Positions 20,526-23,808 of a stretch of DNA of 64,000 bases are shown piece by piece. How positions within the stretch are numbered: the first letter of the stretch is position 1; every line of letters begins with the position of its first letter. A program made the position numbers and the translations under genes. The DNA is from Halostella pelagica (GTDB lineage: Archaea > Halobacteriota > Halobacteria > Halobacteriales > Natronoarchaeaceae), in assembly GCA_005954745.1 (NCBI GenBank), contig CP040678.1:2666001-2730000 (forward strand), written 5' to 3'. Under the pieces are notes generated by a model, which saw nothing but the letters and a program-made list of their open reading frames with translations, had not been told where the DNA came from and did no database searches.

Positions 20526-21122
20526 ATGGACGAGATGGAGGGACTCGCCGTCACCGACTGCGAGCGCTGTCCCGCCCTCTGCGAGTCGCGAAACCGAATC
20601 GTCAACGGCGTCGGGCCGGCCGACGCTGACGTGCAGTTTATCGGCGAGGCCCCCGGTGCCAACGAGGACGAACGGGGAGAGCCGTTCGTGGGCCGGAGCG
20701 GCGACGTGCTGGACGACGCCCTGCTCGCCGCCGGACTCGAACGCGAGGCGATCCGGATCAGCAACTGCGTGCGCTGTCGGCCGCCGGACAACCGCGACCC
20801 GACGACGGAGGAACTAGCGAACTGCCGCGGCTATCTGGAGTCGGAGATAGCGGCGGTCGACGCGGAGGTCATCGTCACCCTCGGCAAAGTCCCGAGCGAA
20901 CACCTGCTCGAACGGGACGTCGCCGTCACGAACGAGGCCGGGTCGTTAGTCGACGTGCGCATCGGCGGCGAACCGCGGCGCGTTCTGATCTGCGTCCACC
21001 CCGCCGCGACGCTGTACGACCGGAGCCAGGAGGAGACGTTCGAGGAGACGCTGGCGACGGCGGCCGACCTCGCCGGCGTCGAGACCGGGAGTGGTGGGCA
21101 GTCCAGACTGGGTGAGTTCTAA
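20526..21122 (+). CDS. udg: Type IV (family 4) uracil-DNA glycosylase
   Basis: A 198-residue Fe-S uracil-DNA glycosylase that removes uracil from DNA. Cysteines at 12 and 15 (CERC) plus those in SNCVRCRPPDN provide cluster ligands. Motif FIGEAPGANEDERGEPFVGRSG holds the family 4 catalytic loop, and ICVHPAATLY the His motif. ATG at 20526 gives MDEMEGLAVTDCERC. It is the third gene after DUF5786 and DUF99 in the same direction. The TAA stop at 21120-21122 is followed at once by structured element R3 copy A. Confidence 0.92.
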   Translation: MDEMEGLAVTDCERCPALCESRNRIVNGVGPADADVQFIGEAPGANEDERGEPFVGRSGDVLDDALLAAGLEREAIRISNCVRCRPPDNRDPTTEELANCRGYLESEIAAVDAEVIVTLGKVPSEHLLERDVAVTNEAGSLVDVRIGGEPRRVLICVHPAATLYDRSQEETFEETLATAADLAGVETGSGGQSRLGEF

Positions 21123-21322
21123 GAAAGCCCTTGCAGCGGCCCGGTGGCCGCTGCTGTGCCCTTCACTGTCCACCGAGTGGCTTCGGGAGTGCCTTCGGGA
21201 GCGGCTTCGCCGCACCGAGTCGTCGTTCGCTCTGCTCGTGGACGGCACCGGATGTCGCGACCGCTTCGAGTGCCTGCCCTTCCCCGTCCGCTGACCGCGC
21301 TCTCCGCTCGCGCCGGTCAGCG
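21123..21322 (+). repeat. Stop-proximal multi-hairpin element R3, copy A
   Basis: This fills most of the 368-base gap after the UDG gene. It starts right after the TAA stop with GAAAGCCCTTG, then an 8-bp stem with 4-base loop (21134-21153), CTGTGCCCTTCACTGTCC, a variable part with small hairpins, GAGTGCCTGCCCTTCCCCG, and a perfect 9-bp stem (21289-21297 with 21314-21322). Copy B at 22980-23218 has the same order on the other strand, with different but still complementary stem sequences. It is probably transcribed as the 3' region of the UDG message; its function is unknown. Confidence 0.75.
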
Positions 21323-21383
21323 CGGCCGCAGTGTTGTCGTCCTCCTGTCCGGACCCGTTGGCGAGCGCAAGCGCAGGATTAGT

Positions 21384-21460
21384 AGTGTCAGCTGTAATCC
21401 CTTGAGGAATATCGGACCCCGGGGGTCCGACTATCCTTCCGAAGTTACAGCCAACAGTAT
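21384..21460. repeat. Palindromic repeat R2, copy A
   Basis: A 77-base imperfect palindrome upstream of the HAD hydrolase gene. The left arm AGTGTCAGCTGTAA and right arm TTACAGCCAACAGTAT are inverted copies, and the centre CGGACCCCGGGGGTCCG is nearly perfect. A diverged copy is at 37960-38035. No coding potential. It resembles a miniature inverted-repeat element, but no flanking target duplication is obvious. Confidence 0.7.
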
Positions 21461-21490
21461 AACTCGGTGGGGTCGTTAGAGTTCGATAAG

Positions 21491-22174
21491 ATGGACAAGG
21501 CGTCCCTTCGGTACGACGCGGTGCTTTTCGACAACGACGGCGTGATCGTCGAGCGGACGAGCAACGGTGTGATGGAACCCGCAGTCCGCGGGGCCTTTCG
21601 GGAACTGGGCGTCGACGAACCCGACCCCCACCACGTCGAATACCTGATCCGGGGTCCGATGGACGAACTGGGAGATATCTGCAGAGCGTACGGCATCGAC
21701 CCCGAACGACTCTGGGACGAGCGCGAGGCGCGCGCCGCCGCGGGCCAGAAAGAATCGATCCGGAACGGCGGGAAGCCGCTGTACGACGACGTCGCCGCCG
21801 TCGCCGACCTGTCGCTCCCGCTCGGCATCGTCAGCAACAACCAGTCCGAGACGATCGACTTCGTCGTCGACCACTACGACCTCGACTGGTTGGACTTCGC
21901 CAGCGGCCGCGAGATGAGCCTGTCGGGCGTCGGCCGGAAGAAGCCCGAACCGTTCTACCTCGAACGCGCGCTCGACGCACTCGGCGCGGAGTCGGCGCTG
22001 TACGTCGGCGACAGCGCGGTCGACGTGGCCGCCGCGGACGCCGCCGGCATCGACTCCGCGTTCGTCCGCCGTCCCCACCGCGCCGACTACGACCTGCCCC
22101 ACGAACCCACCTACGAGATAGACGGCCTCGACGAGATACCCGACCTGGTTCGCGGCGCGACGGTTCCGGAGTAG
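21491..22174 (+). CDS. HAD-superfamily hydrolase
   Basis: A 227-residue phosphatase-like protein. Motif I is FDNDGVI, in which Asn replaces the residue between the two catalytic Asp (DxD is usually preserved as D-N-D, as here). Motif II is in LGIVSNNQSETI, the Lys motif in GVGRKKPEPFYLERAL, and motif III in YVGDSAVDVAAADAAG. The overall pattern is phosphoglycolate phosphatase-like, with a helical cap at residues 20-90. The substrate is unknown. ATG at 21491 (MDKASLRYDAVLFD) is preferred over a GTG at 21467. It is followed after 35 bases by hisH. Confidence 0.88.
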   Translation: MDKASLRYDAVLFDNDGVIVERTSNGVMEPAVRGAFRELGVDEPDPHHVEYLIRGPMDELGDICRAYGIDPERLWDEREARAAAGQKESIRNGGKPLYDDVAAVADLSLPLGIVSNNQSETIDFVVDHYDLDWLDFASGREMSLSGVGRKKPEPFYLERALDALGAESALYVGDSAVDVAAADAAGIDSAFVRRPHRADYDLPHEPTYEIDGLDEIPDLVRGATVPE

Positions 22175-22209
22175 TAAGGAACTTGACCGCGACGCTCCTA
22201 CGGTTTCGC

Positions 22210-22881
22210 ATGAGCCAACAGACCGCGGCGGCGACCGAGAGCGACGGGGCGACGGCCTCGGTCGTCGTCGTCGACTACGGCCTCGGGAATCTCCGCAGCG
22301 TCACGCGCGGTCTCGAACGTGCGGGCGCAGAGGTGACGGTGACCGACGACGTCTCTACGTTTCCTGACGCCGACGGCATCGTCCTCCCAGGGGTCGGCGC
22401 ATTCCGCGAAGGGATGGAAAACGCCGGTCCGTACCGCGACGCCTTACTCGACGCCGCCGAGCGCGGCCAGCCAGTCTTCGGCATCTGTCTCGGGATGCAG
22501 ATGCTCCTGACCAGCAGCGAAGAGGCCGAGCGCGCTGGTCAGGGCGACGTGCAGGGTCTCGACCTGATCCCCGGCCGCAACGTCCGCTTCGCGCAGGGTC
22601 AGAAGGTGCCGCACATGGGCTGGAACGAACTGAACGTCGAGCGCGACCACCCGTTAGTCAACGGCGTCGACAGGGAGTACGCCTACTTCGTCCACTCCTA
22701 CTACGCCGAACCGGACAGCGGCGACGCCGTGGTCACCACGACCGACTACGAGGTCGAGTTCCCCAGCATCGTCGCAAACGAGGCGGGCACCGTCTTCGGC
22801 ACGCAGTTCCACCCCGAGAAAAGCGGCGAGACGGGGCTGCAGATCCTGCGGAACTTCGTCGACATCTGCGCCGAGGAATAG
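22210..22881 (+). CDS. hisH: Imidazole glycerol phosphate synthase, glutaminase subunit HisH
   Basis: A 223-residue class I glutamine amidotransferase that supplies ammonia to HisF for histidine synthesis. VVVVDYGLGNLRSVTRGLERAG starts the domain after a short Ala/Thr-rich leader of about 18 residues. The nucleophile Cys is in GICLGMQMLL, and the His/Glu pair in GTQFHPEKSG. PGVGAFREGM is also typical. ATG at 22210 (MSQQTAAATES) is used. No other his genes are adjacent, so the pathway is dispersed. The end of the gene faces R3 copy B. Confidence 0.94.
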   Translation: MSQQTAAATESDGATASVVVVDYGLGNLRSVTRGLERAGAEVTVTDDVSTFPDADGIVLPGVGAFREGMENAGPYRDALLDAAERGQPVFGICLGMQMLLTSSEEAERAGQGDVQGLDLIPGRNVRFAQGQKVPHMGWNELNVERDHPLVNGVDREYAYFVHSYYAEPDSGDAVVTTTDYEVEFPSIVANEAGTVFGTQFHPEKSGETGLQILRNFVDICAEE

Positions 22882-22979
22882 GACGCCGGCGTTTTCTCAG
22901 CGTTTCCGGATCGAACGTATCAGTCGAGCACAGGTGTGCGAGCGTAGCGAGGCGACCCAGTCCCTCCGGACGGCCGGGA

Positions 22980-23218
22980 GCGCGGCGCGAGCCCTCGCGG
23001 CGAGCGCCGCGCGACCCGGGGAAGGGCAGGCGCTCGGAGTGTCCTCGCGACCGCGAGGACTCGCCCAAACTAGCGGGCCTGGGTCAACGCGCGAGCGGGA
23101 GCGAGCGCGTTGCGGCGTCTTGCCGAACGAAGTGAGGCAAGGCTCGGAGGATGCTCCGCGTCCTCCGGCGGACAGTGAAAGGGCGCAGCGCGCCGCGCCA
23201 GCGGCGCGCAAGGGCTTT
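22980..23218 (-). repeat. Stop-proximal multi-hairpin element R3, copy B
   Basis: Read on this strand it begins straight after the TAG stop (23219-23221) of the SWIM-like gene: AAAGCCCTTG, an 8-bp hairpin with 4-base loop (23189-23208), CTGCGCCCTTTCACTGTCC, several further hairpins (for example GTCCTCGCG-gt-CGCGAGGAC), GAGCGCCTGCCCTTCCCCG, and a final 9-bp stem (22980-22988 with 23004-23012). It shares its skeleton with copy A but not its stem sequences. It fills most of the 337-base gap between hisH and the SWIM-like gene, which contains no other gene. Confidence 0.75.
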
Positions 23219-23566
23219 CTATAGGAACTCTCTGACTTCCGAGTACCACATGTCGTGGTGGTCGACGGCGTCGATTCGCTGGGCGATGTCGACGGCGAGC
23301 GAATGCCAACAGCGCTCCGTCGGGTCCTCGGGGTCCAGGTTGTACTCGCTGTCCTTGCAGGTACAGCCGCCGTCCTCGACGACGTACTCCTCGCGGTGGC
23401 CGACGACGACGATGAAATCACGGTACTCTTTCACACGCCCTTCGGAGACGGACTCGATTGCGCGTGCCCCGCGGTCGCCGTGGACCGACGTGATCCGATC
23501 GACAGCGTCGGGCGTGAGTTCGCCGGCGTCTTCCAGCGCGGCTTTCCACTCTTCGACCCGCGTCAC
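23219..23566 (-). CDS. SWIM-type zinc-finger-like protein
   Basis: A protein of about 115 residues. The C-terminal half contains [27 protein letters not shown] in outline, that is CxC, then about 15 residues, then CxH: the SWIM zinc-finger pattern that binds DNA or protein. Residues 1-60 are acidic and helical ([19 protein letters not shown]). The start is uncertain: GTG at 23566 gives [11 protein letters not shown] at 23575 adds VAP, and ATG at 23632 adds a poor-looking leader that overlaps the trm1 upstream region. Divergent from trm1. Function unknown. Confidence 0.75.
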
Positions 23567-23808
23567 GGGTGCCACCCCGTTCGCACGGCGTCGGTCCTGA
23601 TCACTGTCATCCAGTAAACAGTCCCCCGACAAAACAGGTTCGGTGTGTAGGGTGCGTGAACGTTAGTGTGCGACCCGAGAACGTGGGTACAGCATTCGTT
23701 GTCGGTGACGACTTCGAAACTGTTGCAGCGTCGGTAGATACATCGTCAGGATCCCCAGACCCCGCCTCCGATCCACACGCTTACGGCGTCCCGGGGGCGA
23801 AAACGGGT

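Follow-up and report, generated by a model that had tools for sequence, protein, structure and literature searches.

R3 is a family of multi-hairpin elements of about 190-250 nt, one end of which is anchored at the stop codons of haloarchaeal core genes or at the edge of an adjacent promoter. It is unusual for a homologous structured element, of a family that occurs in 32 genera, to be fixed to the nucleotide at unrelated core-gene stops, and the placement points to a role in marking gene ends. Our favoured reading, to which we lean with slightly less than even confidence, is that R3 is an ancient haloarchaeal multi-hairpin family that reached core-gene borders by past spread and has since been retained as a gene-end module, i.e., for 3'-end formation or insulation. 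We favour it given the placement, a covarying helix that includes the stop codon, the conservation at core genes and the association with the gene of the termination factor aCPSF1. On the other hand, the equal rarity of G.U and A.C in the stems, promoter-edge copies without a stop codon or known upstream message, dispensability and the low likeness of copies at the same site count against it.

The window, i.e., the whole analysed stretch of 64,000 nucleotides, is part of the main contig C1 of the haloarchaeal genome G000 and holds two copies, A and B (Table 1). A search for the hairpin pattern gives one match within the window (copy B; copy A is a variant), while shuffles expect none. Pfam supports the annotation of the uracil-DNA glycosylase (UDG) as well as that of the HAD hydrolase and the class-I glutamine amidotransferase (hisH-like). 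The SWIM-like protein has no Pfam match, and its cysteine-histidine pattern was read by eye only.

Table 1. R3 copies of the window and their host genes. The 3' ends of copy A (at the conserved GGCC) and of copy B were placed by eye.
Feature	Positions	Strand	Parts	Basis
Host gene of copy A, family 4-type uracil-DNA glycosylase (UDG)	20526-21122	+	C-terminus ...GEF (stop)	ORF; Pfam PF03167, 102.5 bits
R3 copy A, right behind TAA	21123-21327	+	outer strand GAAAG; H1 stem GCAGCGGCC-CGGT-GGCCGCTGC; degenerate middle; GCCTGCCCTTCCCCG; H4; AGCGCGGCC end	sequence; model match 21123-21285, 55.8 bits
R3 copy B	22972-23219	-	H1 GCGCGCCGC-TGGC-GCGGCGCGC; extra hairpin modules; H4	sequence; model match 23018-23219, 100.2 bits
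Host gene of copy B, SWIM-like (CxC...CxH) protein	23219-23632	-	C-terminus ...VREFL (stop)	ORF

The preliminary description had both copies start directly after a stop codon in sense orientation. The orientation was confirmed for both. With regard to the position, the statement is exact for copy A: the UDG gene ends with TTC TAA (stop 21120-21122) and R3 follows from 21123 on, opening with GAAAGCCC. Copy B on the minus strand is likewise anchored at the stop codon of its gene, which ends with CTA TAG (stop 23221-23219), but overlaps it by one base instead of following it, i.e., the first base of R3 (23219) is the G of TAG. The two copies had also been taken as an inverted pair that brackets the HAD and hisH genes. 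Such a pair does exist in this genome, but by coincidence, since each copy is missing in some congeners: A occurs without B in G001, and B without A in G002 and G003. The copies are thus independent, the two genes are not bracketed as a unit, and a composite element around them was ruled out. Genome-wide, a model search (E<=0.01) finds 18 R3 copies in G000, all on C1, as expected if the element is retained at core genes of the chromosome. Contigs C2-C4 hold 0 copies compared to the 18 on C1 (chance about 0.02).

Copies from G000 and four congeners share a common plan. The 5' part consists of an outer helix GAAAG/CTTTC, the hairpin H1 (9-bp stem, TGGC loop), AATGTCCNCC and at least one swappable hairpin module; the 3' part comprises a stem with GGTC/GATC loop, GCC(T/A)GCCCTTCCCCG, the last hairpin H4 and AGCGYGGCC. 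A covariance model was built on 16 copies and then applied widely. Among 53 diverse copies, 94.9% of the cells pair, 28/31 pairs show changes on both sides, and 391 cells are double-changed (122 in shuffles, 46-77 in slid controls), in an alignment that was fitted to the model and is therefore biased towards the structure. That is, the R3 helices are kept by compensatory changes, as looked for in a structured RNA. The outer helix also co-varies with the stop codon: beside GAAAG/CTTTC, we observe AAAAG/CTTTTTA, TAAAG/CTTTA and, read from the sequences, CTAAG/CTTAG, and the strand of the outer helix contains the stop codon in these last three variants.

A second sign of structured RNA, an excess of G.U over A.C among the mismatches of R3 stems, was not found. 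Both are equally rare, with 33 G.U vs 34 A.C in total (H1: 10 vs 15; downstream: 23 vs 19). Since a helix selected as sense RNA should favour G.U, this argues against selection on the sense RNA only. A tRNA control for this comparison (G.U 23) was discarded, since mismatches are missing from the pair list of the program, which biases the control. We further find H1 stems that are identical between loci and between species. Copies at orthologous sites are barely more similar (80.5%) than random copies (79.4%), which implies that modules either pass from copy to copy or evolve until saturated. At five loci (L067, L123, L147, L291, L313), the first hairpin unit (about 50 nt; GAAAGCCC-H1-CGCCCTTTTCATTTCCAC) is present as a tandem, such that this unit may duplicate on its own.

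To what extent the anchoring generalises can be read from 144 model-found copies of the own and other genera. In 94 of them, the host stop codon ends at -4..+3 nt of the R3 start, always in sense, with T|GA, TA|G or TA|A, and TAAa|G (the bar marking the R3 start) as the commonest junctions. Such placement is not chance, and it extends the anchoring of the window copies to dozens of unrelated genes in many genera. Random distances or antisense copies, named beforehand as what would contradict the idea, are not what the 144 copies show. About one fifth of them do lack a preceding stop codon, yet are placed equally precisely, namely at the promoter edge of a divergent gene. These are 26 copies (about 30 with alternative starts) that adjoin the divergent promoter (BRE/TATA by eye); the divergent start codon lies about 36-48 nt to the left in nearly all of them and at 55-56 nt in two. 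No tRNAs are nearby, which rules out tRNA 3' ends as the cause of this class. The sense position right behind a stop that a cis-acting 3' UTR or terminator should take is found for 94/144 copies but not for those at promoter edges. The remaining 24 copies are mostly misplaced starts of the model, tandem first-hairpin units or decayed copies. A conserved gene (g16; C-terminus ...NSELMQ; L128, L158, L161, L167) runs 16-22 nt into R3, with its stop inside the first hairpin, and is the sole exception to the stop-codon rule.

The R3 end that faces the gene is always the same one. The far end is loose, i.e., convergent stops are found from about 0 to several hundred nt past H4. When reduced to 31 independent host genes, all fall into an 8-nt slot of a 100-nt 3' region, for which a simple null that ignores target preference gives a chance of about 1e-34; spacers of 5-100 nt between stop and R3 do not occur among these genes. 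One might explain such data by passive placement, in which R3 inserted at random positions between genes in the distant past, and the non-functional spacer on one side was later trimmed by deletion bias up to the next functional boundary. The age of R3 sites and the two kinds of boundary at the left end (stop codon, promoter) would agree with this. We nevertheless regard it as highly improbable, given that the right side has not shrunk likewise, intermediate spacers are missing in all 31 genes and the left flank shows a preference for TTC.

This preference belongs to a set of DNA-level signs that make another explanation a serious rival. Here, R3 would be a selfish non-autonomous mobile DNA element of MITE- or REP-like behaviour, with a target of about TTCNNNN before its left end, inserted at gene borders and without host function, whose stems are kept by template switching or gene conversion. 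T is found at -7 in 21/31 host genes, whatever the frame, and is also common there at promoter-edge sites. Phe is among the last three residues of 13/31 hosts compared to 29/320 controls (p=7e-6). In those orthologs without R3 that were read, the C-termini are alike, which assigns the TTC to the host. The G.U counts, which do not exceed those of A.C, the H1 stems shared across loci and species, and empty or decayed orthologous sites speak for mobility as well. TTC alone, however, leaves unexplained why copies 5-100 nt past the stop are absent, identical core-gene sites recur in several families, and neither a link to a transposase nor an autonomous partner was seen. Empty R3 sites were also read for a target site duplication; none was seen at these sites, the right flanks of which are too diverged to align. 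Overall, we consider the selfish element less likely than the gene-end module. With regard to the preliminary description, which had offered a 3'-end function or a mobile element that targets gene ends, the precise placement is real, but the evidence gives no clean choice between the two.

Among known systems, R3 is nearest to REP-like repeats and hairpin 3' UTRs, yet it fails the defining REP/RAYT tests. Like REP/BIME sequences, which are linked to RAYT/Y1 transposases, R3 is an interspersed palindromic repeat outside genes; some REPs are also found near stop codons, but merely about 11% of those of E. coli lie within 15 nt of a stop. R3 differs in its length of about 200 nt, the fixed order of several hairpins, the low copy number (about 10-20), the location at core genes and the constant anchoring. 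A REP is a 20-40 bp palindrome with a GTAG or CGTC tag, whereas R3 spans about 190-250 nt and opens with GAAAG (or AAAAG, TAAAG, CTAAG). The Y1 transposase (PF01797) is absent from six R3-rich genomes (G000, G002, G004, G032, G052, G067), by which a dependence on a resident Y1 transposase of the REP/RAYT or IS200 type is ruled out for present-day genomes. MITEs and PATE-like IS derivatives are, like R3, short, non-coding and multi-copy with empty sites in relatives. In contrast to them, R3 sites are conserved across families and no parent element was found; terminal inverted repeats are lacking too, i.e., the ends GAAAGCCCT and AGCGYGGCC, compared by eye in aligned copies, are not inverted repeats of each other.

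Haloarchaeal hairpin terminators and structured 3' UTRs share with R3 the hairpins directly behind genes. They differ in that all R3 copies belong to a single homologous family, in which loops and single-stranded motifs are conserved; R3 starts from the stop codon itself and is also found at promoter edges. Integron attC sites are palindromes at gene 3' ends whose structure is conserved while their sequence varies. R3 copies are also structured palindromes at gene 3' ends, but they are single copies at core genes, outside cassette arrays, and inspection of the aligned ends by eye revealed no RYYYAAC/GTTRRRY core sites. Scanning the window with Rfam at gathering score yields only a tRNA elsewhere, leaving R3 unmatched, and a permissive scan of 21060-23300 yields weak chance matches only. 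R3 as an RNA family known to Rfam is thus ruled out.

Using a broader model, R3 is detected in 77/394 genomes and 32/95 genera of the order. No match was found outside the order among 148 genomes drawn from the phylum. Owing to the strict filters of both scans, these counts represent minimum values. The hosts are core genes. Above the NCBIfam cut-off, we identified aCPSF1 (TIGR03675) and the DNA polymerase II small subunit. For glutamate dehydrogenase (gdh) and, at promoter edges, IleS and an eIF2B-like/ribose-1,5-bisphosphate isomerase gene, the best match falls short of the whole-protein cut-off, and part of these matches are fragments. GyrB, Orc1/Cdc6, PhoU-like, aspartate kinase and others were recognised by eye. 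Several hosts recur across families: aCPSF1 (f1, f4, f7, f14), gdh (f1, f6, f14), SWIM (f1, f4, f14), the IleS promoter (f1, f14) and c18 (f5, f14). Orthologs of the SWIM-like gene of the window carry R3 in G002 and G003 and in other families.

Orthologous loci with and without R3 were compared as had been proposed, and both empty and decayed sites exist within the genus. The site is empty for UDG and orc1 in G002 and G003, for gdh in G001, G002 and G004, and for SWIM in G001. Decay is observed for the aCPSF1 copy of G003, which retains the 3' half only, and for c9 and c20 of G000, which are remnants. The role of R3 is directly testable, since the copy at a given gene can be present, absent or decayed among close relatives. 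In G000 (C1:3150800-3160500; L093, L094, L096), each of three consecutive genes, i.e., Orc1/Cdc6-like, DNA polymerase II small subunit and aspartate kinase-like, has R3 at its stop codon, and this cluster is also R3-bearing in congeners.

The widest host is the gene of aCPSF1/FttA, the archaeal transcription termination factor, with R3 in 29 genomes. In family f7 (Natrialbaceae), the single detected copy sits at the aCPSF1 stop codon in 19/19 examined genomes; this number leaves out three further f7 genomes with weak matches and does not represent 19 independent events if the copies share one ancestor, as they may. Natronococcus jeotgali and Halopiger goleimassiliensis have R3 at this gene. 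It is absent at 78/80 named aCPSF1 loci, among them three other Natronococcus, and hence dispensable. The recurrence at this gene suggests a link to 3'-end formation, possibly as feedback on that factor, and R3 may be in contact with aCPSF1.

For the gene-end module, these observations allow for the following picture. At most sites, R3 would be the 3' untranslated region of a transcribed message, starting from the stop codon. The outer helix would begin at, and often include, the stop codon, and the later hairpins would fold behind the terminating ribosome. Most likely, R3 would define or shield the 3' end of the host message and block transcriptional read-on, i.e., function in termination or stability. 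At divergent promoters, the same orientation would put R3 at the end of the antisense transcript that leaves the promoter. In a Haloferax assay, a hairpin motif ended 59% of transcripts (PMC7237163); that hairpins can terminate transcription there is counted in support. The T-run bias that is usual after stops is not seen after R3, which is counted in support as well, at a difference that is not significant; poly-T is not in excess after R3.

Two further mechanisms can be formulated. In the first, R3 would be a sensor embedded in the stop codon through which aCPSF1/FttA-dependent 3'-end formation is coupled to the end of translation: the outer helix would be held open by the terminating ribosome, the departure of which would let R3 fold and trigger cleavage or termination. 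At the aCPSF1 gene, the copy would then serve self-regulation of the factor, and those at divergent promoters would silence antisense transcription. We deem this combination quite unlikely. The second proceeds by analogy to E. coli, where ribosomes stall at REPs located up to 15 nt from a stop (PMC12306157). The R3 hairpin directly behind the stop might likewise slow or stall the terminating ribosome and lower the protein output of the host gene. The distance from stop to R3, held within a few nt, is well inside the 15-nt range of REP stalling, but promoter-edge copies cannot work this way and a 200-nt multi-hairpin element exceeds the need, such that an action on translation appears very unlikely.

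No earlier description of R3 was found in the literature, in a search that covered few subscription journals. It was found neither under the name NMIRS nor in the Natronomonas moolapensis genome paper, and R3 sequence strings gave only unrelated matches in papers. If R3 forms message 3' ends, archaea have a defined and portable 3'-end signal, which would provide a direct test of how termination is linked with translation and with aCPSF1, the relative of eukaryotic CPSF73 in archaea. A mobile R3, in turn, would represent an element that reads gene borders.

Finally, the window contains a second repeat of about 80-85 nt (21376-21461), which is bounded by terminal inverted repeats TACTGTCGGCTGTAA...TTACAGCCGACAGTA and present in the genome in some 25 copies. 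It is missing at the same site in G001, and the comparison suggests a TA target duplication. This repeat thus looks like a true MITE, with R3 copy A on one side of its insertion and the HAD gene on the other.
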